From contig WIXG01000318.1 of NCBI GenBank assembly GCA_009869945.1, positions 27,060-91,059 on the forward strand: a DNA stretch of 64,000 bases. Reading direction: 5' to 3'. The notes under the pieces were generated by a model. It saw only the letters and a list, made by a program, of their open reading frames with translations. It was not told the DNA's origin and ran no database searches. This DNA is from Mesaphorura yosii (taxonomy: Eukaryota > Arthropoda > Collembola > Poduromorpha > Tullbergiidae). A program made the translations under genes and the position numbers. This document shows, in pieces, positions 2,466-49,176 of the stretch. Positions within the stretch are counted from its first letter, which is position 1. Every line of letters begins with the position of its first letter.

Positions 2466-2573
2466 CTGGTGTGGGTTGAAGCCTGGCCTTTGTCTCATCA
2501 TTCGAAGTGTGGCCACTACTGCTGCTGTCCACGTCCGAAACACCAGAGTCCGCCGGGCTGGGAGGGAGCGAGC
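2466..2573 (-). CDS. Eip74EF: E74 common exon C2
   Basis: The exon is 108 bases, phase 1-1, after TTTCAG and before CCAG|GTTAAA. It encodes 36 residues (E74A 614-649, E74B 246-281): SLPPSPADSGVSDVDSSSSG followed by HTSNDETKARLQPTP. The PADSGVSDVDSSSSG block is a signature I recall from the common region of insect E74 just before the ETS domain, and it is the strongest identifier of the common part. The Ser/Asp-rich block is a likely phosphorylation-prone linker (inference). The next exon, expected to start the ETS domain in phase 1, was not found in bases 1-2465. An unrelated-looking open frame runs across this exon on the plus strand. Confidence 0.88.
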
Positions 2574-5059: not shown

Positions 5060-5269
5060 CTGTTGAGCCCGACGCGTAGTGAGATTGTCGATGACTCCCC
5101 AGAATTCCATTTGGTACGATTCCTCCGTGCACTTGGCTCAGGAGGCCTGGGTGATGATTCAGAATTCCCTGCAGGAGCGTCCTCGGTGGCGAAGTTCTCG
5201 AAGATCTTTTCGCTTCCAGCTCCAAGATTCCATTTGGTCCGATTAACCGCACGCCACCGGCTGTGTCAA
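5060..5269 (-). CDS. Eip74EF: E74 common exon C1
   Basis: The exon is 210 bases, symmetrical phase 1-1, between a strong acceptor (TTTGTCTTTGCAG|TTGAC) and CAACAG|GTAAAA. Of the three frames only this one stays open, and it is the frame set by both A3 and B. It encodes 70 residues (E74A 544-613, E74B 176-245) beginning DTAGGVRLIGPNGILELEAK and ending RQSHYASGST. The motif PNGIL occurs twice, about 40 residues apart, within similar DNA, which suggests a small internal duplication. No catalytic or DNA-binding domain is visible; in E74 this part links the isoform-specific N-termini to the ETS domain. An exon between A3 or B and C1 cannot be excluded, since phase 1-1 cassette exons would keep the frame. 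Confidence 0.85.
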
Positions 5270-8200
5270 CTGCAAAGACAAAGAAAGAGACGCCAATTAG
5301 TGAATTATTCATCGGTCGGTCGGGCAATTTGACGGGTACGGCGTTTTTTGTATCGGATGGACGGTTTGCTTATGCAACGCAAGCTGTTTATTTATAATTT
5401 TATAATGCGATGGCGATAACGGCATGCATGCATTGATTCACTCAAGTGCAGTGCGCTGCAATAGCTGATAAGCTATCGCTATCACGATTTAATCCTACTC
5501 GAATATAAAACTAAATCGTGGGCAGAGAAGTAAAATAATTGCTGGCAAAACGAATGCTAAAAGGTGGCAGCTGAAGGCCAATAAAAATAACAATAAAATC
5601 ATAAGCATTTCACTGGAATCTGTTTTCCTATGACAAAACCAGGCAAATACAAGCACAACATTTAACTCGTTCCCAAAAGTTTAGAATTGAAATTTTAGAA
5701 AAGTTGAGCCGACGCGGGCGATTTGAACGACAAGTGCGCGTTTCAAATTGGATTCAAACTTTGCAGGCTATCTCCTGCTTTTGCCTCTGCCTTGTCAATA
5801 CCATCATCATCATCGTGCTCATCTGTTACATAATAAAATTGCAATTACTAAAACTTATTTCACAACAGCATCGAGGAATCGAAGAAACTTGTTTCATTCC
5901 GTTCGTTCCAACTTTCAACTTGTTTGAATTCCTCCTTCTTCATTATTCGCTCCGTAAACAAGCGTCAATAACAAGGCGAACTCAAACTGAGCTCGTAATG
6001 TAAGGAACACTTCAATTACCTCGGAGCAGCAGCAGCGGTGGATGTGGAAAGAAAGAATTTCTGCTCAACAAAGGCAGCACGATGAGCTCCATGAAAATGC
6101 AAACACGTGCATATAACAACGTAAATCGGCCGGGCAAAGCATTAACACTCAGCGCTGGTCTGGCGAGTATTCGCAGGATAATGAAAAGTGAAGTGAATTT
6201 TACAGGTAATCTCGTCATCGCATCACAAGCGAAGGTGTGAGCGAACGAGCGAGCGAGCAACACAGCGCAACGCAAATTGGAAGCGAGATTGCTTCAATTA
6301 CGTGTACAAGAATATTTCTTACTGTATCACGTTAACTAGTAAAAAGTCAACAATTCTTCCATTCTGAAACCCATTCAAAAGAAACATTATAATGATGTAA
6401 GATTATGAAATTGACGATCGACACAATGAAGTCAGGCCAAAGCTCCAGACAACCAGCCACCGAACGCGAGCCTGAGAAATCCGTGACTTATGTCTGAGAG
6501 ATTTCAAAGAAGCTCCGGAAGTCATTGTTATTGCACGTAAATACGACGGCTGGCTTCGAGAAAATTCCCAGGTTTTTCTCCATGCGAACAAATTTGTTCG
6601 GTCGGAATCTGATCAAGTTTAAACCTTAAAAAGCAGTGTTTATTCATTATTGCACTGCTGTGCGGTTATGAAATATGTTTCCATTTATAGACGAACGCAA
6701 ATTTCCCTGAGCCAAAGTGTTTACATTCGATTCCACTGTGCAATCTGTAATCTCGTCGTCGCCGTGATTTAACAAATACGCTACGTCGTACAATAGCCAT
6801 TGTGCGTGCTGTAATTTATGATTTAAGAAAGCTTGAAGTAGTGATTTCCACATCGCTGTCGCAACGCAACGAATTGGCTCAGTTCATTGTGCTTTGTGCT
6901 GTCGCTGCATTACAACCAATTAAGCATCATGCATCAAACATCAAACGCCTATGCAATTCAGGCATTCAGCCTGTGCAAAGTGCAGCGCATTGATTGTGAA
7001 GTTCTTGAACGGCATTCTTCTTCCATTCAGCAATAGCAGCAGCTTGGCCAGAATTCGCAAGTGCAAATTGCAAATGGCAAATTCGCAGCTCGCAGTTCAG
7101 CTCGACTAAACCTCCTTTCACATTGCCTCTTTGAGCTTGCGAGCTTGGTGTGGAATAAATTAAGTACAGCAAAACACAATGTCTGTTTTGCATTTGGAAG
7201 GAGCGAGCGAGCGAGCGCAAGAAGCGAGTGACCATGATCTCAATTTAAGAAAGTACTTTTTAGTCTCACGTCTGCGTCTTTGCACGTCGTCGTCCCTTTT
7301 TAAAATTCAAATTATAAATTTCGTATGTATTGAGCGTCCGTATTGAATAACCTGGCCTCCTTCTCTTTCCATCCCGTTGTAATTATGTGTACAGCTTAAT
7401 TTAGCGTGGCCGCCTGGCGTATACGTTACGTGTAAACAGTTCATGCGTCATTATTCGCATTCGTACAACGGAATCGACGAATAAATTAAACCAACAGAGT
7501 TGAGCCGCGTATCGATAATTCTGAGCGTTGCAATGTAGCGCAGATTGCAAGCAAGCCAGAAGGCTCGGCTCGGCTGAGACAGGAAGACACGCTCCGCGAT
7601 TTGAAAGAGGAACGAAAAGGGAGCGAGCAGAGCGCGTCTTCCGTTCTTGGAACTGTTTGATGATCCGATTAAGACGCAAGACGCATGGGCTGAGTAAATA
7701 TGGAACAGGTGAGAGCGGCACGGAGGAAAATTCACCTGACAAAATGCGGTTCCGTTCTCACAGAAAATAATGGCTCGTGAACAGGTTGCTCGTCATTCTA
7801 GTTTTCCGTTCCATAAAAGCATCGCATAAAAGCATTTAGCCTTTATCGTACGTAAATCTCAGGAAGAGCAGGCAGACAGGTCGAAGCCGAAAGCTGCGAT
7901 TGCTTGCTTGTTGTAATTACCGCGCAATCGCTAGGCCTGCCTGGGATTGCGCAAGTGTTGTTTTAAGAGAACGGACGACCAGGCCAGACTCGAATTAAAT
8001 CCACATTACTCCACGAAAGCATTCACTTGCTCGTCATTTTCTTATTCTTATTCGAATTCTTACGTATTCACAGTGTGAAACGAACCGAATCAGAGGATCC
8101 GGTTTTTATTTTATCATCATTTCTCTTGCTGCGAGATAAAGAAAACGCAAGCGCGAGAACGCAAACGAGTCATGACTGTTGCAGTCGAGTCGAGTCTCAG

Positions 8201-8369: not shown

Positions 8370-11300
8370 CAGCAACAGCAGTCAGTTGCTGCGATGCAAT
8401 GCGATGAAGGACGACCTTGATTTGGTGCATTACTCTTTTTAGTGGCACTGCTATATAGCCATGCTAAGCTGTAAATGTAAATGTTGTTTGCTCAGAGCGT
8501 ACATCGAATATAATGTGCACCACTCGTAATAAATTCTCGTCATTAGCCAAGCCAGCCAGTGCAATTGTAGTAATTATTATCTGAGCCAGCTGTACTTTAT
8601 TCGTTTATTCATTATCATTACGAAGCAGTGCTGCAATGCTGCAAATTTGCAAGACTCGAGTACGCATTCATCGCTGCTGCTGCTGCTCGGTTGAGGCAAC
8701 TCCTTTTTGTGTGTGATTGACGAATAAATTGCTTCCTTTTATCGTGTCATGTGTAAATAAATTAATTTTGAGGTAAACCCTACACTGATTGTCGTAATCC
8801 AAAGGCAAAGCCAAAAGAGCTGCGAAATCAATTTCTGGCATTGACGACCTTCGACCATGATTTCAATGATTTATTGTTGCCTTTGCCTGCCGTGCTGCCA
8901 CGCTAAACGCAAAAAAAATGGAAGTGGAATGTTGCATAATGTAATGAAGTGAGGAAGACAATGCAAAGTCAGACGGCGAGACTCTAGCAAAATAAGCGTC
9001 CCGTGTGCAGTGAGCTTGATTTTTTAGTGCGATGCCGATGCCCGACGGTAATGAAATCTGGTCTTGAAAAGGTGAGCTTTATATTCGTATTTGCTGGTTG
9101 AGCACTGAGAACCTCAATCGAGCCCCGTTTCTGGTTGTCTGGCCGACTCGGACCCTAAATTTTGAGATTCTCCCTTAAAACGGTAAAAATGCCACGCCAT
9201 AAATAGCAGCCACCGAGAAGTAAGTCAAGTGTACGACCGACCAAGCCTGCAGCAGTACACTAAAACTGTCTAAACCGTAACTCGTACTCGTTCGACTTGA
9301 GTTGCAGTGCAGGAAATGAGGTTCCTCAGTGCAGTGCAGTGCAGGAATGAATGAGGCCTCTAAAAATAGCTGCGCTGCTATTTAGTTCAAAATGCATAAC
9401 ACTTGTGCGCTGTCAGTCCATAAAAGCCATGCCAGAAAGATGCGACACGACGTGCGAAATGAATACAATAAATTCCATGTAGGAAGAATAAAATCACATC
9501 AGTGCAGTGAGCTGGGCTTCAGAGCAATGAGCAATAAAGCGTCGTCGTGCCATATAAACTTATAAATACAAGTTGGAGTGGAGGAGGATCTCCCGCATCC
9601 ATGCATGCATATGTGAGTGTGGAGTATCGAGTATGTGGGCCAACGGGAGGCAGGCAGCGTGTTGGTATTTACAACTACTGACCTACATTTCCCGTCGTCT
9701 CTCCCGACCTATATTCGGCCTTTAGTCTGGCTCTCCTCCACCGGGACAATTCCAGTTCACATCAACATCTACATCCACCCAAATACGAGAATGAACAATG
9801 GACACATTCTCCATTCGAGAACAGGAACACGGAAGCCTGCACGCGCTATGTACTGGAATTATTTCTGTCCTAATAATACAAGCACTCCAGCTCAGTTCAG
9901 GTTGTGCTTGTGATTGTACTGCACCTCTTTATGATGTAACAATGGGAAGAAGAAGAGGAAGGTAGGATGATGCGTATGCGTCTTGAGTGCCTGTTGGCCT
10001 GGAGAGGAAGTCCCATTCAATCTCCGTCTCCGTCCTCGTGAACTCAATTCCAGGCTCACGAGTACAGTTAGACAAGGCATACACACACAAGCAATTAGTA
10101 CAGTTACGGTTACGGAGAACAAGTTGTACTTATTTCCTTGCCGTTATGTAACGTACAATGCAATGTAATGCTGCCGCAATGGAATGGAAGTTCACTCTCG
10201 CTCTCTTGACCTATTTAAGAAGCAATGACGGCAGCTCAACAACGGCGGTAGTGAGCCATGTATGCATGTGAGATGTGAATGCGTGGAGTGGATGAGATGA
10301 GGATCCAGCGTGTTCCGGATTTGGGTCAACTCAATTCCTACGGTAAAAAACAGTTCCAGGCGCGTATGATGGTATTGTTTTACGCGCGCTGGCTTTGCAT
10401 GCGTCGTGATTATTGTCACCCACTTCAGCTCATTCATATTTACGAAAACGACTACGACTAGAGACCCACCACAACGCTTTGCCTGATGCGGTGAGGCACA
10501 CATTAAAAATTTAGCCATGCCATTAAATTTAATATTTTGCATTCCACTTGTTCGCTGATGCTGCTACGCTATGAAAACGCAACGCAACGCAAAGCTTCAA
10601 ATTCAATCGTGAATTGTACAATACGATGCAGTAACCTTAGCGCAGAAATGAATTACAATTATAATTATTACAACCATCTGCTCGAACCTCGATGAAATAC
10701 TGGACGTACTTGTACTGACCTGGTCTCATTCGACCGCTGTTGGTCAAACAGCAGCGCAACGAGCAAGACAAGTCTCATTAAGGAAGGGCAAAAGGAAGGA
10801 AGGACAAAGTTGAAGTGATGTACGTCCAATTGTTTCTGTTCTTTTTCTACTTTCAGGCTGAATTACGTGATTGTGATTGTAATAATGCGAGCGCATCGCT
10901 CATCGCCCATCACATGCGTGCTGTGCTCGTTCGAATCCTCCGGAGACGCTAGAGCCATGAGCCATGAAATTAGGTCAAGCCGTAAAAAAGTAACATCTTG
11001 GAGAATGAACGAGGTCAGTTTAGGGTGAAACAAAGAAATGCTGTGGAAAAGGATGTGGGACGCGTAAATTTCATCAGCAACATGTGGACAATGCCCATCC
11101 GCACCGCCGCAATCCGGCTGGACGGACGGACGTGGAAATTAGTCAAGTCAAGTCAAAAATGTGGAGAGAAAAACAAGTTTTCATTTCCTAATTCGGACCA
11201 GGCCGGGCAAAGAAAAGGAAGTCAACACCTTCAACAATGCATGCCATTTGGACATTCAAGTCGCGATGAGAGGAAACGAACGACCGAAGGAAGAACGAAA

Positions 11301-17300: not shown

Positions 17301-20300
17301 TCTTTATTGTCGCTCTTTACTTAACTTTCTCTTCGGCAGGTTTTATGCTCGGGCAATTCGCAATTCCGAAATGGCAGCACTCAATTTCCTCTCTGCATCC
17401 TCGCCGCAAGGCAGGCAGGCATGAAGATCAAGTTCGGCTCGGATTTATTGCTTTGTTTTCCGCTGCCGTGCCAGACGTATTTCTGGCCGGCCGGACTGCT
17501 GGCTTTCATGGAACCTTGAGTCTCCTTAATCTTATAATCAATAAAATGTAGTTGTAGTCGTAATCGTAATCCAGCCGTTGTATGGCCGGCCATGTAACAA
17601 ATGCACTTCAGCGAAAGCCTTGCGAAGAGCGAAAATATCGGAAATGACTTTCGGTATTTCATTTTGTCGGGCCCTGCCTGCGCGCCTGGAAGTTTATTGG
17701 ATGACGCACAACAAAACTTGCGAAAACTTTCCAAGCGCCCATGAACTCTCCTTCCGACGTGACACGGCAAAGCTAAAGCTGCGAAAACGAAAATCCGATT
17801 CTCGTGTGCGAGTTTCGTCTCACATTCCCCGAAATACGCATACAGCGAAAGCCAAGCAAAAGCAAAGCTTCTGCAAGGAACAATCAACACTTCCGTCAAT
17901 TCTAAATGCAAGTCGTAGTCGTTTCTTTTGTGCTGTGACAGCAGAATGGGCACTTTCTTATCGACATCGTTGCGATGGCGTACTCGTCCGTATTTTGAAC
18001 GGCTGTAATTCCTTTCGTCATCCGAGCTTCGTACTTCGAGTCTCAACAAAAGAGGAAGAAGAAGCGGATGGGTGTTGTCACAGAAAGAAGAAAGACTCAA
18101 ATGAAAATGAGTTTATGGACTCTTACGTAGTAGCGTCATTAACGTATTCAATATGCATACGCACGCATTGTTACTCGACGCATTTTCAACTTTTGTCGCT
18201 GCCGTTTCCTTTTCCTCACTTTCGATTGCAATTTTAATTTAGGAATTAGGACACAATCTGACAATTTCGGTAGTCGAGAATCGAGAAGCTCGAAATTGTT
18301 GGCAGGGCAGGAACAGAGTCCCAATCTAAATTTTAATGATTTTGGAAGCGAAGGCGTAAACAAATTTTACAATTAATTTTTATGGCCAGATGCAACGCAG
18401 TGCAGTGCAGCGCAGACAGGATGAATCGTAATAATCTCGATGGCAGTAACGACTTACGACGACGACTTCCTTTCTTCTCAAATTATTCAATCCAAGACAA
18501 GACAGGACAAGGAAAGAGAACGTAAGCGTAAACGTACACGTATAAATGCAAACGGGTTTAGAGAAAGAGGATGCGATTCTTTTGCGTTAACGAGCCTAAG
18601 AAAAGAAACCGTTAGCGAGAGTCCTTCGTCTGTGCCTGCCTGCCTGCACGGGGCGGAACAATACGAGTGAGGTAACCTAGTTAAGCTGTATGGGCCCTGG
18701 GCACGGATTTCGTGCTTCCTCGTCCGTTTCCCTCCTCCGGCGTGCACCTGTGCCTTGAAATTCGATGTGGTGCGCTGTGCTCTCGGAATTCTCATCTCAA
18801 AAGTGTCCGTCAGTATGTTCCATTAGCAGAGCACAGCACAGCAACAAGTTGCGTTATTCATCCAGCAGCAGAATACCTTCAGGCCAGGCACCGCAACGCA
18901 GCGTTAAAATGTTAAAAGGATGCACAGCCCGTTCGAGTTCCTTTTCAAGGGACGATTCTTCGTATTTTCCGTCATCGTCATCATCATCACCGTCTTTAAT
19001 CTTCGGCCCAAACAAGCATGAAAACCTTCGATTCCTTAAGGTTCATTTTATCTTTAGCCTTCCTCTTCCTTTTCCTCGCTGGCTGGATATAATTTGCTGG
19101 ATTGCAGACTTATGAGGACACTCAGGAAGTCGACTGACTGACTGCATCATTGCTCAAAAATGAACCTTGCTCAAAATAGACAGACAGGCAAATCGACCGA
19201 CCCTTCTCGCCGACCCAGCGTGTTTACGTACTATTTGAAAAATTGGAGTACGAGGCAGCAGGTTCCTCCTTCCTTTTGTCTGGCAGCAGGCAAAAGCAAG
19301 AGCAGAAGCGCAGGGTAACTCGAGTCTAATTGTTTATTTAAATACTCCGTCTCGTCTCGTCTCTGAAGGTTCATAAACAAAAACAATCCTGAGCTGCCTG
19401 TCATCTTCCCTTAATCCGCTGCTCCAATTCCAATTCTAACAACTAACTTTCACTGCCGCTTGAAGCGAAGAAAACTTCCGGAAAGGCTTGCCGTATTTAT
19501 TTCAAAGCCATGCCAAAGCAGGCTAATCAGCAATTGCTGCAGCGCTGCAATTTTTCGCCTCTGCTCTTGAGTATGACGTTACGTCACGTAAAACGAGTTG
19601 TCATTGCCTTGCGACTGCGCTCGCTGTAAATTTCTTCTCTGCACTGCGGTGTTGTTGGCCTTCTCTTCCTTGTTTTTGAAGGCAAGGTCGAAAACTGCCC
19701 TGGCTGATTACATGAATACGACTACGTATTTCCTTCTGATGGTGGTTTTTCGTTTTTGGTTGGCAATCAACAAGCATTGGAATTGATAATTCTTTGTGGA
19801 CGTCACAGCAGCCACGAGAATTTTTCCGAGCCCGAGCCGAGCGAGAATGAATGAGAATTCGCAATCGGAATCGGACAATTCACGATTGGATGTCAAGTGC
19901 ATTTTCATTGCATTTGATCGCTGTTCGCTGGCTTTGGCAAATCGATACTCGACATCGACTGTCCCAAATTTCAAACGAAAACTGTTTTCAATGCATCGCA
20001 ATCACAGCCTTCTTCTTCGATCTTCTCCTTCTTTCAGATTTGTCACACGCGAGTGGCCGTGTTCAGCGTTCGGAACCAAATCAATACTTGTCATTCAAAG
20101 TGCACGTAAGTCAGTCAAGTCAGCAAAGGCAAAGGCTTGGCTGACAGAATTCAAATAACACGAGCGAATCGGCTTTGACAGTGAACAACTCACTTGGCTC
20201 GACCGATGGTAACAGCAACGCAACAATCGCACGGATGATAAAATTATCTGAGTTGCACAGTGAAGAAGCAGCGGCGGACTCAACCATCTGTAACTAATCG

Positions 20301-23041: not shown

Positions 23042-23567
23042 GATATCTCTTCATGAGAGACTTCTTGTAGGCTTTGGGATTGATTCCCAGATCCAGCGGC
23101 TGACCGTCCGAGTCGACGTCGCCGTCGGAGTCTTCCTGCGGCGAACTTGAGTCTCGCTCGCAGTCGAAAATGAACCGGCTGGAATTAACGCTGAGGTCCA
23201 TCGACGTCTCTGTCTCTGACAGCCTCCCGGGCATGCTCAGGTCGAGCGGGCTGTCGCTATCCGAGGTGCTGCTGCTGCTGCCGCTGTTGTGGATCGCGAT
23301 TGTCAACTCCGACTCGTCAGCGCTGCCGCTTCCGGCACTCGTGCTACTGCTGTTGCTGTTTGTGCTCGTCATCGAGTCACTGCGACGGTGGTTGAAAGCC
23401 AGGAGCGCTCGGGGATGCGGCGGAAGCATCATTTTCATCATCATCATCGCGGCAGCCGCCGGACCCGGCGAAGGCGACGAATCTCGCTGGACAAGTGTCA
23501 CCGACAAATCTTGCCCGAGCCCGTGCCCACTTTCAGTGTCCATGCTCAAACTGTTGCGTCGATCCAT
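23042..23567 (-). CDS. Eip74EF: E74B first coding exon (N-terminus of isoform B)
   Basis: This exon encodes E74B residues 1-175 plus one base. The ATG at 23567 is the first in-frame ATG after an upstream TAA. The exon ends at AGATATC|GTAAGTG, a near-consensus donor, in phase 1; C plus TT of exon C1 gives Leu176 (KSLMKRY-L-DTAGG). Seen: QDLSVTLVQRDSSPSP (19-34), an Ala and Met run (37-47), Ser/Thr-rich 62-82, SPLDLSMPG (106-114), SMDLSV (122-127), an acidic Ser/Asp stretch (137-155) and QPLDLGIN (156-163). PLDLS-type sequences are the known form of CtBP-binding motifs, so a repressive input is possible but unproven. There is no DNA-binding domain in this exon; that comes from common exons outside the window. 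The B assignment rests on position and frame; E74B proteins are less conserved than E74A at the N-terminus. Confidence 0.85.
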
Positions 23568-24500
23568 TGAGGTTTAATTGCTAGCGTCAGTTCAGTACAA
23601 CACAAATAAAAGTCCAACTCCACTCCGATTTATCCGATGAGATTCCCAAAATAGTACTCCGACTCGCGTCGTTGGTATGCACATTCTCTGTAGCGTCTTT
23701 GCCAGAGGTTTGCAATCGTCTCACCCAAATTTCCAGAAGTTCACCGCACGAATTAACCAGGAGGAATTTTTGCAATCACCAATCACATTCTCAATTCAGA
23801 CGAGCGTCTAGCGTCTCAATGCACAATGCAAAATTCTGGGAGTCAGTCCAATGCAAATAGCAAATGTAAACAGTAAACAATGCTTAAATTAGTTGAGTTT
23901 CATAGATGAGAACAGAGGCAGAAGCCACGCCAAACTGAGTCCAGTCCCAATAAATTAATCCTGTTTCACTTTCGCAGTCTTGAACACAGCGTCTCAATCG
24001 GAAGTAAACACCGCGCGTGAATTTGTGACAGAATACGTAAATCTCAGAATAATGCTCACAAGTGAAACGCTGCCACTACACTTGGAACCGGGCACGTCAG
24101 ACTTAAATTCACAATCGCAGTCGCAATTCGCACTAACCACAAGGGCGTCTGTCCGAAGACAGAGTCACGAATCACGAATCACGAGAGTCACCAAAACAAC
24201 CGAGTTTGAGAGTTGCCGAAAAGCGATGAGGAACATCCTCTCCACCTGAACCATGAAACTCAACTGAGAGCGAGTGCAAGGTTTTTCCGTTTCTCAGGCT
24301 CACAGCCGAGCCAAGCCACTCACGTACATCAAAGCAGCGTTCTCTTTCATTCCCATTCCATTCTCATTCTCGAAAATGTTACGCTACGACGACGGTACAC
24401 ATTTTCAGCCAAACATTGTAGTATGTACGCGTAAGCGTACGCTGTGCCTGTGCCTGTGTGTCTCGTCGTCGCTTGCGTAGCTTTGGCGTGCCGTAGTAGA
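23568..24500 (-). promoter_or_regulatory. Presumed E74B promoter and leader region
   Basis: The E74B start codon implies a promoter here or further right. Seen: an upstream ORF of 30 codons (23684-23592) ending 24 bases before the E74B ATG; two arthropod initiator-like TCAGT sequences on the minus strand (near 23935 and 24260); and a possible leader donor GTAC|GTGAGT near 24326. No clear TATA box is at the right spacing. The transcription start is not determined. Confidence 0.3.
23592..23684 (-). CDS. Upstream ORF in the presumed E74B leader
   Basis: ATG TGC ATA opens 30 codons (MCIPTTRVGVLFWESHR..., rich in Val, Leu and Arg) ending in TGA 24 bases before the E74B start. It would be in the leader if the E74B mRNA starts upstream of 23684 without splicing it out. 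It is probably regulatory rather than a functional peptide. Confidence 0.3.
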   Translation of the reverse strand: MCIPTTRVGVLFWESHRINRSGVGLLFVLY

Positions 24501-26171
24501 GTGGATTACTAGTACGAGTAACCTGGCCGACTGGCACTTGGCACTTGGCACTTTGCTCTGTGATGAGTGTTGAATGTATAAAGCAGTGCTAACACAATTA
24601 AACGTGGCCGTGGCTTAGCTTAGCTTGGCTTGGCTGCTTGCTGGATGCTGAAACCTGTCTGTCCGCCTGCGCCTCGCTCAAAGGTTTTTCGTACAATTAT
24701 GTTCACTAATTTGTACTTCATACTAATTCCGTAATTCCGTGTCGCCTTTCTTTCACATCCGAAACACAAAACAAAAAATGCTGCAAAAATGAGAAAGAAT
24801 TCGCCGCCGAATTTCAGCTGACAGCTTAATTTAGACAAACTTGATCGTGGAAAATTCGGTCAGGCATTCTCTGAAAAAAAGACTGCACAGTTCCAAATCC
24901 AAATCGCGAATCGCGCTTATGAATTTCTTTGCTTACGAATTTAATCATTACGCTGGTTGCTGTGCTGATTACAATTGCAGTTGCCTTATCTTTCATGCAC
25001 AGCAAAGATTAGAAGAGTTCATGTGCTTGAACGGATCGCAGCGTCGCGTCTCACCGCGCAATGCAATTGGCAATACGCAATACTCGTACTTTTGCAAATA
25101 CGAAGTTCATTATTCCCATTGTTTGGCCGCTTCTACATTACTCAGAATTCAACACGGCAGCAACGTGTAATCACAACCACACTTTGCTGTGTTGCAATTG
25201 CAAAATCCCGACTGTGCCTGCGCCTTTTTTGGTTTAGCAATGAACTCCTTCAAAGTTTACGTAGCGTGCGTGGCATAATGGCGAAAGGAAATATTCACAA
25301 ATCTGCTGCTTCTTTCAGTGTCTCGCATTTGTTGTGGTTACCGTACGAAAAGTCGTACCTACGGAGCTCGTCTTGGTTTTTGCGATTTGAGCCCAGTAAC
25401 GCAAATTGGCGTGGCATGCCACCGCGAAATGTCGCAATCGTAGTCACATCTTTTAATCTTGTGCTTAATGACATTAGGCTGGAGACAAATGTGCTCGCGT
25501 GGGAGACCTCACCGCACCAAATTCATGTTAAGCATGGTTTCAGCAGCGACGAGTAATTTTTACGACCAGACGAACTTGCATCATGAAATTTCGCATTTCG
25601 CGATTAATTTGAATGCACTTGGGCTCGGTTTTGATATGATTATACCTATGATTATTTCTTTGCTTGTGAGCTAAGAGGATACAGAAATTTGTGTGAAAAT
25701 GTGACAACAGCGCAACATTGAAAGCAGCGAAATGCGAAAGAGATCCCACCCGTAGCCGCAGCTGAGTGGAATCGTCCACTGCAGCAGTGGTGGTCAACCT
25801 TCCTTAATGTCAGCGAAATACAAAACGCGAAATGCTGAGAATTACTCACAAGGTGTTTGTAATTACGACACAACAGCCAACAGCCAACAATGGGCATGGG
25901 TTTGGGCTCGGGCGAGACAAGATCTTTGAACTTTAGCTGTGCACACGCACACAGGCCATAAACGGCTGCACTGTTGAAATTCGCACAGCGAATAGCGAAT
26001 GCATGTGTATGTGATTAATGAGTGTATTGTTGCTGTAAGAGCTTGCTGCATTGCATTGCATTATTTCAGAGTCGTAGTCTCGTGCGGGATGTTGATTACG
26101 TTATTAATATTCTTCTGGTGATGCAAAATGAACGCAAAGTGGGGCAAGTGCAATACCTTCATTTCATTTCA

Positions 26172-35956: not shown

Positions 35957-37852
35957 CTGAAACTTAAGTGCGTGGCGTGCGCGAGAAAGTAGAAAATTGG
36001 AGCAAAATGTGTCAGGAATCGAGTTGGCTGTCGATTTCCTCGAGAAGAAACATTTGTTCCCTGCTGCCCTGCGCTGCGACGACGCATGCGCTCTGAATTA
36101 CAGGCGTCCCGACGAGACAAAGGCAATGTGATGGTTTTGACATGCTTGGCAGAGCAAATAAATGCGCTTTACGCTGTCCAACGCCAAAGACACAAGATTG
36201 GGAGATGCAAAACATTTTTCAAGTGTAGGAACGAGACGCAACAGAAAGTAAAAGTAGCCTTTCTTCCTCGCAGTGCAATGATTCATAAAATAAGAGTATG
36301 TAGAGTTTCTGTTCCAATAACCGCAACCGACGTGGACGTGGCTTACTTGGCTGCAAAAACAATTAATCTTCCATCTTCTCCATTCCCAGGCAGGCCCGAA
36401 TAGGGGCCTGCAATGCAAACAATGCGTAAGGTCGGACGAGTTCGTGTACGAGTTTGACAGGGCCAAAAATAAAATCCTACCCTGCCTTCCTGCCTGCCTG
36501 CCCGCTCCCACAAACAGGCAGAACATAGTTCAGTTCGACTCGATCCATGGATCATTTCTTCTTCGCGTACGTTGTCCAGTCAAGCCATGTCTTTTGTCAT
36601 GAACTGCCTCATTTACCATGCAGCATTTAAATGGGAGTAAAACTGGAAACGGTGTCAAACTTAATTACGTACTTCGAGAGAACTATGAAAAGTGAATTTA
36701 AAATCCATACAAATGCGTATTTGGAGGGAGTGCGTAGAAACCGATTTATAATTGTCTGCTCTGCACTGGCACTGAAACACTGGACTGGTCAGATGTGTAG
36801 TCTGTTATACAGTCGGGTGGGCAGAACTGAAGCGCATAATTATGACGACGGAGGACATGACGACAATCATTCAGGAGACGAACCCAGAGCAACGAAGGAG
36901 AAGAAAAGCCGTACGCAAATTAAATTGGTGCCCGGTAAATTAAATTATTGGCATACAGGCACTGTGACTGTGCTCGTGCCTTTGCAACTTCCAGAATAAA
37001 GAATAAAGGATGAAGAACTGGAATGCTTAATTATTGCGTCTTCGTCTGGCTTCTGTAATGAGAATGAGACTCGCATGGCAGGCATAGCAAATTGTGTGCA
37101 CGGCACAGATTGATGGGAGTCGAATCCGAATATTAAGTCTCTGGCCCCGTAATGGGAAAAGGAAGAAGAACGACAGCGGGTTCGAGTTTCCAGATGCACG
37201 CATCTCTCAACTACTCGACTGTTCTACTCGACGACTTAATTTGACAAATGGTCAAAGACTCTCAGCAGAATTAAAAGAGTAGAAGTAGAAAGTGACTGCC
37301 AGGCGGCAAGAGGAAGAAGGCTCCTCAGTTGATGATGATGATAATGGAGCAGTGTCGCTCTTGACAATGGCCTTTACGTCACCACTTCCAGCCAATTCAT
37401 TAATTATGCTCGAATTTCCTATTCCAAGGCTACAGTCTGCTCATAGAGTCACAGAAAAGCTGAAGCTGCACTTTGAAAACTACGAATGTCACTTCACCTA
37501 ATTAAATCTTTGCAGTTTGCGATGGGCGACGACGACGATGGCCGTCGTCGTAGCAGCATTCATTAATTGCTTTGTTTTGATGTGCTGCTGTCGTAAAATC
37601 GATACGAATGGCATAATAGCATGTTTTGGGTGCAAATACTCGCCTGCCTGCCTGTCAGCAGCCCGTCTGTGTCAACACAGAGTACAAACCAATAGAAAAG
37701 GTAGGCAAGGCCGGTAGCAATTACGAATCCAGAAATAAACTCGCCACGCCGCACCGTGACGCCGTAATGATGCAAATGCAAATTCATAGTGAGTGCGATT
37801 CGCGTAAGCAAACCGTCCATTGGTCCATAAATTAAATTTCAGCATTTCTTAC

Positions 37853-37897
37853 TGCTGCCGCTGTCGTCGAGGAGAAGAAGGAAACCGGCTGTCTTAC
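37853..37897 (-). other. Eip74EF: Candidate recursive-splice site / 45-base microexon in the E74A intron
   Basis: On the minus strand TTTACTCTCTTTTCTTTGCAG ends at 37898 and is followed at once by GTAAGA: a strong 3' splice site abutting a 5' splice site. A second donor, GCAGCA|GTAAGA, ends a 45-base segment at 37853. The segment is open in phase 1-1, so it could be included between A3 and C1, adding GKTAGFLLLLDDSGS and changing the junction residue. It may be a zero-length ratchet point with its recursive exon, or a cassette microexon of isoform A only. This is inference from splice signals. Confidence 0.45.
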
Positions 37898-39751
37898 CTG
37901 CAAAGAAAAGAGAGTAAACACGAAATTATTGATTGGGTTCAAAAGCAGACGAGGCATTTCGCAATCGGCATTCAAATTGGACGAACTCGCTACTTCAAAA
38001 TAACTGCACGAGTACAGCCGCACTCGTCCTTCACCGCGAGAACACGAAATTTGAGCGAGCGACCATGCACGAGCATTTTTCTGCCTGACAATCCAGGAAA
38101 ACGAATAAAAAGAATCGAGTTTTGTGTATGGCTTTGTTTTGCTCTTGCTTTTGCACTGCTTTTGGCTTGACTTTTTGTCTTCCTTCCTGTTGATTATTTT
38201 CCTGCAAATGCTCGTGCGATTCGTGCAGTCTTTTGTTGAAATGTGGCCTATTTACTCATTTCATGCACGCTGAATGCTGGAATTGAAAGCTGAGGTTGAA
38301 GGCCGAGCCGAGCAAAACCAAGACGAGCTACTTTAGCCCACATAAAAATCGAGGCAACGAAATTTCTTTGTGTGTCATTGCCATTTTACGAATACGAACG
38401 CCTTTGTGCTGCTTTTTACCATGCAGCAATTTAGCAACTCGCGATTTAGTCACTCGGAAATCAACATGCGCATGCGTGTATGATTAAATTCGGAATTCAA
38501 TTCACGTCGATGGCAGACAGAAGACTGACATTGACATTGACACACAGGCTCAAAGCATTACAGCCGTTGACGTCACGCAAAAAACGGAAGCAAAGCAAAT
38601 GTTGTCTGGTCTTCGCCACGCGCCGACGTTTGTCCAGCCAGATAATTAATTCGCATTCGCAAGTTGTAAGTGTGTGCAATTGTACAATCTTGCAATTCGA
38701 CTCCGACTCTAAGAATAGACTCACGTCTACAAATCCTAAAAAAGTAGAAAAACCGTTCGCGCTTCGTTCATTGTCGCGTTCGCGTTAGCGTCAGAGATGA
38801 GAATGCTTCTAAATTTATGTCGTTAAAATAGCCAGGCAAAGAAACCGGGCAATTATTCTGGCTGGCTGGAAGGATCGAGAGAGAAAATAAGAATGAAAGG
38901 TTGTGCGTCGGCTCCAAAGTGGTACGCTATAAAAGCTGTACGGAGAAAGATACAGTGTGCAGTTATTTTTAGCCGTTTCCCATTTTCAATTCAAAGAGAA
39001 ACAAAGTTGTTCTGTGCTGTGCAAAACACTCGCATCGTAACTTGGCGTATTCGTATTCTGGGCTCTGACAGCCAGTCCTCGTCTGCGTGTAAGCTTTTCT
39101 TTTCTCTACCTGCCTGCTTCACAGCAAAGCAGAGCAGAGCACAGTTTTGTGACCGGAAATGCCCTTGAGGTTTTATATTATATTTTCGCCTAAATGGAAG
39201 CAGGAGATATACACCGGATTGACGTCAAACTTCTCTCTCTTTCTCCTTCTCTCGCTTGTTCTATACGATACCCGCTTTGCCTTGCATTGCCTTCAATCCG
39301 GGTATTAACCATTACCTTTCACCACACAACTCGTCTCTTCTCTTCCTTTGCTTTCTATGTTCTCTTTCGTCCTCTCATACATTTTTCAGCGGCGCTGCCG
39401 CCGCTCGATCTTCGGCTTTCGCTATTTGCTGCATGCAACGAACGCAATATGCGAATTGTGGACTGGCCTGACAGAAACAGTTTATTTTCGTACTGCAAGC
39501 ACGTACGACGCACGAAATACTCCACAAACCGAATTACACAGTTTCGACTGCGCTGCATGTCGCACGAAGAAAGCCGTGTAGCCAAATCCCTTTCGCATTT
39601 CGCTACTGACGCTATTGAGAGATTAGGGTTTGTCAATACTACAGACAGGGCAAACCGGGGAAAGTTAGCGGAAGCGGGAGATAAGAAAATTTAATTTCCA
39701 CTGCGCCGAATGGGAGAAATAATAATCTGCGATGCTCTTGAGTTGTTGACA

Positions 39752-47594: not shown

Positions 47595-47765
47595 CTTTTG
47601 ACGCATTGATGGACTCGTGCCCGGTCTTTCCGCCGGTGTCGGGTTCAATTTTGATGCCCATCATTTTCAGTGTGTTGCCGTTGTTGCAGTTGTTCCCGCC
47701 GTTCAAATGTGGTCCCATTCCATTCTTGTTCATTTCTTCGCCGGACATCGGAGCGGCCAGTTTTT
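47595..47765 (-). CDS. Eip74EF: E74A coding exon A3 (last isoform-A-specific exon)
   Basis: This exon encodes E74A residues 487-543 and one further base. It starts after ACGTACAG and ends at AAAAG|GTCAGT, both in phase 1. The protein continues the Asn/Gly/Met-rich style and contains GIKIEPD (residues 523-529). That fits the hydrophobic-Lys-X-Glu sumoylation consensus, with K525 as the acceptor; the modification itself is inference. The leftover G joins TT of common exon C1 to give Val544, so the frame runs ...INASK-V-DTAGG.... The intron that follows is 42.3 kb and contains the whole E74B first exon, which supports two promoters feeding one set of common exons. Confidence 0.87.
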
Positions 47766-47843
47766 CTGTACGTGATAGGCAAAATACGCGTTTAAACATG
47801 TTTGGCAGCACCAAGGTCAAAGCAATCCGCAACGCCAATGTAC
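47766..47843 (-). other. Eip74EF: Short in-frame intron A2/A3 of E74A (78 bases)
   Basis: GTACAT donor and CACGTACAG acceptor, phase 1. The length is a multiple of three with no in-frame stop, so the exon reads through as one 1.6 kb ORF. The read-through segment (26 residues, including TLALRIALTLVLPNMF) is hydrophobic and quite unlike the Asn/Gly/Gln-rich protein on both sides, which argues it is normally removed. Retention would give a viable longer protein. Confidence 0.7.
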
Positions 47844-49176
47844 CTGCGAGAAGCGGGTTGGCCGCCGCAATTCCGTGCTTCCCCATTCCTTGCCCGTTAT
47901 TCATGGTCCGATAGTGGGCGTGGTGCTGCTGGAGGGGTGGTGGCTGTTGTTGCTGTTGCTGGTCAGACTGACAAAGCTGACTCTGCAAAATTGATCCCAC
48001 CGGACCTCCGACGCCTCCAGCCTTTCTTCCGACAGGGAATCCCATGCCGCCGTTAATACTTCGCCCTAAATTGTTCCCTGTGTTGTCTGTACCCAGCAGA
48101 TCGGGGCCGCCTTTGTTATTCTTTCGCCTCCGCTTGTTGCCTGCTGCGCCTGGGCCTACACCGCCGGGCCCACCATTTCCGCCTCCATTCATTGCACCAT
48201 TGTTTGGGCCACCATTGCACATTTGATGATGGTCAGAGGGCTCCGAGCCGTGATTTTGGTTGTGATTGTGATTGCTGCTATTACTATGATTAAGTGCTAA
48301 GTTACATATATTATTCAGGTTGTTGGTCGGCTGCGGGGCATTTAGCGTGTTGGCGTACGACTGGACCATGTGTCCATTGTTGTTCATCTGATGATGCGTG
48401 TTCATGTTCGCGTGCACTTGTCCATGCTGCTGTTGTTGTTGTTGCTGGTGGTACGGTCCACCGGAGCCGTTAAAACCGCTCATGCCCGACCCCTGCCCGG
48501 CACCGCCGCTGCCAGACGCGGCGCCCTGACTTTCGTCGACGAGCCCATCTAGAATAGATTCGAGTTCAAAATTTGTCTCGCCGAGCTGTTTGAAGAGGTC
48601 GTCGTCGTCGCAGTCGAGCGGAGTCACGAGCCCGTTGAGGTCCGCCTGCGAGAGCTGCGACAGCGACGGGAGTTCGAGGTCGTTGGCGCCGCCGTGATTT
48701 GTACTTTGACCGAGCGAATGTTGTTGCTGACTTGGGTGCGTCGCGTACTGCGAAAGGCCGCCTCCGCCGTGCAAATTCATGCTGAAAGCGTTGTTTGAAG
48801 CGTTCCCGTTTGGTGGTCCAATGTTGCTGCTGCCGCTGGTCGGAGCGGCGGTGGTCCCATTAGTTAGTGTGCGGCTGTTGTTGGTCTGGTGAATTTGGAG
48901 AAGGGAATGAGGAGAAGGCGTGTGCTGCTGCTGCTGCTGGCGGCCCATCGCGTGCGTGTGCGCATGGTGACCACCGTTGCTATTGACGTTTCCGTTTCCG
49001 TACACGAGCGAGAAGGAGCTGAGACTGTTGCCGCCATTGGACGAGCCGTTGGCTGAAAGTGTATTTACATTCACCGAGTGGATATTCGTCGCTGGACTAG
49101 ACGAGTCACCAGGCCCGTTCGACCCGCTGCCCATTCCGAGGACGGAGTTTCTGTTAGCACCGTTGCTGCTCCCGTC
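47844..49176 (-). CDS. Eip74EF: E74A coding exon A2 (large low-complexity and acidic region)
   Basis: This exon encodes E74A residues 43-486 plus one base. It is entered in phase 0 after a good acceptor (a T run, then GCTACAG|GACGGG) and left in phase 1 at GCAG|GTACAT. It is rich in Asn, Gly, Ser, His and Gln, with Gln runs near residues 122-126, 286-292 and 448-453 and Gly-rich stretches near 263-282 and 372-388. The least repetitive part is residues 208-257. It holds LPSLSQLSQADLNGL, then an Asp run (232-235), then LFKQLGETNFELESILDGL, an acidic-hydrophobic pattern typical of activation domains. A basic cluster KRRRKNNK (about 390-397) could be a nuclear localisation signal. Low-complexity regions of this kind are usual in E74A. 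Long ORFs on the opposite strand here are shadows of this exon. Confidence 0.9.

Follow-up and report, generated by a model that had tools for sequence, protein, structure and literature searches.

The stretch of DNA analysed here, referred to as the window, is 64,000 nucleotides long and comes from the springtail Mesaphorura yosii. It corresponds to C318:27060-91059 in a genome of 93.0 Mb and 1,127 contigs, and contig C318 ends where the window ends. The minus strand carries a gene whose assignment to the E74/ELF type is supported by its ETS domain (Pfam Ets, 6.2e-25), as the best relatives of this domain among solved structures are Elf-2 and Elf-1. Along the gene the order is A2 (MPFIDDDLLWC...), A3, a 42.3 kb intron, C1, C2 and the ETS exon. 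The last of these (C318:10283-10471) lies outside the window and gave one weak 14-residue match when scanned against viral_contigs. The labels E74A, E74B, A3 and C1 are names that we take to apply to these exons and isoforms. The 42.3 kb intron between A3 and C1 was deduced from the in-frame exons, and the site described below lies on its sense strand. Splice-site scores throughout were obtained with a model whose weights are rounded, approximate values. The exons inside the window that matter for the argument are the following.

47595..49176, minus strand: exon A3 of E74A, ending AAAAG/GTCAGT, phase 1
23043..23573, minus strand: placeable part of the E74B coding exon, with a candidate donor TATC/GTAAGT at 23043/23042, phase 1
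5060..5269, minus strand: exon C1, 210 nt, phase 1-1
2466..2573, minus strand: exon C2, SLPPSPADSGVSDVDSSSSG..., with a weak acceptor (6.0)

The second-best sense-strand acceptor of the intron (12.9), at window position 24780 on the minus strand, sits 1.2 kb ahead of the E74B coding exon and may be part of an E74B exon.

An acceptor fused to a donor

On the minus strand an acceptor runs directly into a donor at 37898/37897 (...TCTTTTCTTTGCAG/GTAAGA), the AG ending at 37898 and GTAAGA starting at 37897. The fused site lies 9.7 kb into the intron (23% of the way), with 32.6 kb left to C1. A second GTAAGA, as GCA/GTAAGA, starts at 37852, 45 bases past the fused site. The preliminary description had reported a fused TTTGCAG/GTAAGA, a second GTAAGA donor 45 bases on, both distances, and an open interval of phase 1-1 matching A3 and C1. 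All of these particulars hold: the interval from 37897 to 37853 is 45 nt long, and its translation, joined to both exons, runs on without a stop. The parts of the site are listed below.

37925..37929, minus strand: ATAAT, read by eye, a putative branch-point-like motif; its A at 37926 lies 28 nt before the AG
37898..37915, minus strand: pyrimidine tract and acceptor, TTACTCTCTTTTCTTTGCAG, score 12.4
37892..37897, minus strand: GTAAGA immediately after the acceptor, the putative ratchet donor, with U1 pairing of -9.5 kcal/mol behind the AAAAG of A3
37853..37897, minus strand: candidate recursive exon of 45 nt, GKTAGFLLLLDDSGS, phase 1-1
37847..37852, minus strand: weak donor of the candidate exon, GCA/GTAAGA, score 4.97, U1 pairing -5.1 kcal/mol

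The sequence has the (Y)nNCAG/GTAAGT-like acceptor-donor form except at position +6, which is A and not T. Its fused score is 20.1 bits. The runner-up in the window reaches 11.3, and of 1,167 AG/GT sites across 502,200 bases of strand the second-placed one reaches 14.6. The next best fused score in the intron is 8.3, and the 32.6 kb remainder contains no second fused site that would divide it. The acceptor taken alone (12.4) is comparable to those of A2 (13.5), A3 (12.3) and C1 (13.0), while C2 scores 6.0. It ranks third among the 2,437 AG sites of the intron sense strand, where C1 ranks first, and one site on the antisense strand is equally good. For the donors, the computed U1 duplexes were -9.5 kcal/mol for the regenerated donor, -8.8 for C1, -8.0 for the A1/A2-type CTG/GTAAGA, -6.5 for A3 and -5.1 for the recursive exon. 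The regenerated donor thus pairs with U1 better than A3's own donor and better than that of the 45-base exon. A first cut should improve the donor of A3, and the recursive exon's donor should lose out to the fused one. This order (regenerated, then A3, then recursive exon) is as expected of a normally skipped ratchet point.

A short direct repeat in the flank of the site is 75% alike over 16 nt, and a perfect 12-base inverted repeat lies at window positions 38067-38078 and 38206-38217, 170-320 bases upstream. A repeat or transposon was rejected: a 251-base query over the site matches itself alone in the genome, and no tandem array covers the site. A search for structured RNA found no Rfam match, and no tRNA was found.

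Resemblance to the acceptor of C1

Beyond what the preliminary description had noticed, the acceptor and the first exon bases of the fused site resemble those of C1. The two blocks are as follows.

37884..37936, minus strand: block resembling the C1 acceptor and exon start, ending in the shared ACAGCCGGT (37892-37884)
5256..5315, minus strand: counterpart block at the C1 acceptor, with ACAGCCGGT at 5264-5256

C1 (TTGACACAGCCGGTGGC) and the site (GTAAGACAGCCGGTTTC) thus have the same 9-mer at an equal offset from the AG. The pattern YYYYNCAGN5ACAGCCGGT has two matches in 93 Mb, C1 and the fused site only, against one for the reversed control. A run of at least 9 bases to the first 18 bases of C1 was found only at C1 and the fused site among 28,636 AG sites in 502 kb. 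Local alignment of the two acceptors scores 47, the next best of 5,022 background windows scores 36, and none of 19,920 random acceptor-like pairs reaches 47. When 349 acceptor-like sites were compared with one another, 5 of 60,683 pairs shared a run of at least 9, the C1-site pair included. C1 was picked for comparison after the site had been seen; with about ten possible comparisons allowed for, the chance of the likeness is still below about 0.001. In 186 Mb of strand, about one chance match to the pattern is unremarkable, whereas one inside this very intron is odd.

The likeness may reflect shared ancestry, a shared enhancer or luck. It suggests, as a second reason, that the fused site is an exon edge, and it also admits the possibility that the acceptor was copied. 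The site would then derive, by partial copying and divergence, from the acceptor and exon start of C1. Its role, should it have one, would be that of a decoy acceptor or of a conventional alternative exon, with an incidental GTAAG and no recursive step. The counts and alignment scores above favour such a copy, and so does the position of both blocks in the same strand, intron and phase. Against it, alignment of the flank requires a 7-base gap, and in the local alignment the likeness ends after the shared 9-mer, the rest of C1 not being seen at the fused site. The fused donor would moreover need a chance origin within the copy, and both the post hoc choice of C1 and the one pattern match expected by chance genome-wide weigh on this explanation, which we consider unlikely.

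Duplicated alternative exons are a recognised class, and the fused site is similar to them in that its acceptor and exon start are common with C1 and both are phase 1. It differs in that the likeness covers only about 40 acceptor bases and the first 14 exon bases, that 32.6 kb separate the two places and that no other part of C1 is seen. Mutually exclusive splicing by RNA pairing was rejected, as the sense strand of window 5000-48000 contains neither the reverse complement of the shared 9-mer nor any of its 8-mers; of the three reverse-complement 7-mers, two are absent there and CGGCTGT occurs 4 times.

Rarity of the motif and coding frame of the candidate exon

Within the window, YYYYNCAGGTRAG occurs once when both strands are searched. 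Across both strands of the 93 Mb genome, Y10NCAGGTAAG has 8 matches and its reversed control 9. The class Y7NCAGGTRAGT, to which the fused site with its GTAAGA end does not belong, has 12 matches against 17 in the reversed control. CTAAYN{8,30}Y5NCAGGTRAG has 13 against 8 reversed, and the fused site, having ATAAT, is not among the 13; the permuted exon start GARTG in the branch-motif form gave 4 against 2. The 13 against 8 is not taken as recursion because a surplus of GTRAG is accounted for by ordinary donors that follow CAG, and the 4 are likewise indistinguishable from ordinary donors. The ratchet motif class is therefore without excess in the genome as a whole, long introns being counted together with the rest. 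Neither zero-length recursive splicing as a habit of the species nor a genome-wide ratchet habit is supported. The counts are compatible with a few real ratchet sites. By its fused score and these counts, the site belongs with the best examples of its class in this genome, and the class itself is not in excess.

Three other sites deserve mention. At C53:255136-255154 (minus strand) lies an identical 19-mer, TCTTTTCTTTGCAGGTAAG, with CTAAT 24 bases before the AG, GTAAGT behind it and GTGAGT donors 86 and 90 bases on. It looks better as a ratchet point than the one in E74A, and its surroundings (9 kb, 8 reading frames) gave no Pfam match above the cut-off. A further ratchet-like site with a branch motif, CTAATCAATTTCTTGTTTTATCTTTGCAGGTAAG, is found at C71:85840-85873 (minus strand). 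One of the 8 fused motifs, at C356:57758-57776 (minus strand), adjoins a coding exon, presumably of a fucosyltransferase, and for this reason some of the 8 matches are likely to be plain donors behind pyrimidine-rich exon ends.

A large intron and an eager reader will now and then yield a good fused site. That the present one is such a chance match is improbable in our judgement. With genome counts not above the reversed control, several sites of this form per genome may arise randomly, but 8 sites in 186 Mb of strand, spread evenly, amount to about 0.002 per 42 kb of intron sense strand, and the likeness to C1 is a second rarity.

Joined between the last G of A3 (47595) and the first base of C1 (5269), the candidate exon reads through without a stop, and the forms that skip and include it are both open across A2-A3-C1-C2. 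Openness alone says little, since 565 of 1,031 intron YAG sites precede a 45-mer that is open in the same frame; a GTRAG lies 20-100 nt downstream of 62 of 1,032 such sites. In a paired-exon scan with a donor cut-off of 5, the 45-base exon fell just below (4.97), and a 143-base alternative sharing its acceptor came second of the 76 sense-strand candidates. The antisense strand gave 79 candidates with better top scores, so acceptor-donor pairs that could form an exon are in themselves nothing unusual here. Strong antisense (plus strand) pairs at window positions 10857-11013 (21.1) and 20038-20105 (20.7) may be due to chance or to an antisense transcript. An ordinary 45 nt cassette microexon of E74A (or a longer one with another donor), joined by one splice per side, would suit the strong acceptor and the open, frame-preserving sequence, but its weak donor would face a much stronger one at the first base of the exon and openness of this kind is common, which makes it quite improbable.

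A probable ratchet point in E74A

On balance the fused site is probably, though by no means surely, a ratchet point in the E74A pre-mRNA, and the recursive exon that goes with it would be cryptic and preserve the frame. We infer that the spliceosome would use it in the following order. A3 would first be spliced to 37897, taking out 9.7 kb. GTAAGA would then stand directly behind AAAAG as a better donor than A3's own, and this regenerated donor would reach C1 (5269), taking out the other 32.6 kb and leaving an mRNA without a trace of the event. The weak donor at 37852 would let the spliceosome define a short exon that is normally skipped; should that donor be used instead, isoform A would gain 15 in-frame residues. 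The earlier statement that the event would concern isoform A only is sound, because the E74B coding exon lies downstream of the site.

Similar sites are known from Drosophila, and to judge this one by a Drosophila framework is an assumption. Ratchet points such as those of kuz and Bx likewise have a pyrimidine tract and CAG/GTAAG, lie in a developmental regulator whose intron is very long, and combine a first segment near 9 kb with a short cryptic exon whose downstream donor is the weaker one. They differ in that the present site has GTAAGA and not GTAAGT, belongs to a motif without genome-wide excess and is a predicted ratchet point. For kuz and Bx, greater inclusion of the recursive exon is reported when the fused donor is weakened.

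Three publications allow a closer comparison. Flies have hundreds of ratchet points, whose cryptic exons are about 50 nt long and generally out of frame, with fewer than 50 of them expressed; in skipped recursive exons the regenerated donor is stronger than the exon's donor (PMC8605326). The candidate exon here is, by contrast, open and frame-preserving. The same paper describes the Ubx microexons m1 and m2, of 51 nt each, as expressed recursive exons. These resemble our candidate in being short exons that start with a donor, may be skipped or included and sit within a very large intron of a gene for a transcription factor. Here there is one exon of 45 nt and not two, and its inclusion is only predicted. 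Its opening bases are like those of the constitutive exon that follows. Among fly introns above 40 kb, recursive sites are called with high confidence in 63% and with medium confidence in another 7%; recursive segments have a mean length of 9.1 kb, and single sites tend to lie nearer the midpoint (PMC6110457). In introns above 50 kb, a class that the 42.3 kb intron falls slightly below, ratchet-type sites exceed those of the complementary strand 21.7-fold in fly, well over 10-fold in mosquito, 8.2-fold in sea urchin, 8.0-fold in beetle and 4.0-fold in bee (PMC2773006). Given this strand-specific excess in other invertebrates, flies are not expected to be alone in using recursion. Among the papers searched, none links E74/Eip74EF to recursive splicing.

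Several observations favour the ratchet point: the lead of its fused score (20.1 against 14.6), an acceptor equal to those of A2, A3 and C1 (12.3-13.5), and a U1 ranking (-9.5, -6.5 and -5.1) that matches skipped recursive exons (PMC8605326). To these are added a first segment of 9.7 kb, close to the fly mean, in an intron of a length at which recursive sites are common in flies, the excess of ratchet-type sites in long introns of five invertebrates, and the C1 likeness as a second sign of an exon edge. It is weakened by the lack of motif excess, the undivided 32.6 kb, the weak exon donor and a position 23% into the intron, where fly data place single sites nearer the midpoint. It is also weakened by the fact that the site was picked by a reader in search of oddities, so that its odds are post hoc. 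The ratchet point or recursive exon first proposed is partly supported: the anatomy fits ratchet points with cryptic recursive exons in flies (PMC8605326) and the site is far above background; the motif shows no genome-wide excess.

A more speculative proposal, which we put forward as doubtful, traces the ratchet point back to a copied acceptor and exon start of C1; use of its own donor would then add a 15-residue insert repeating the T-A-G start of C1. If this were true, a decoy of the final exon would have become a stepping stone, which would be a route for the birth of recursive exons.

The long E74 unit is believed to set the timing of isoform A relative to isoform B. If the fused site is used, an intron of this ecdysone-response gene would be removed stepwise in a compact 93 Mb genome without a general excess of ratchet motifs, and the likeness to C1 makes the origin of recursive exons a testable question.
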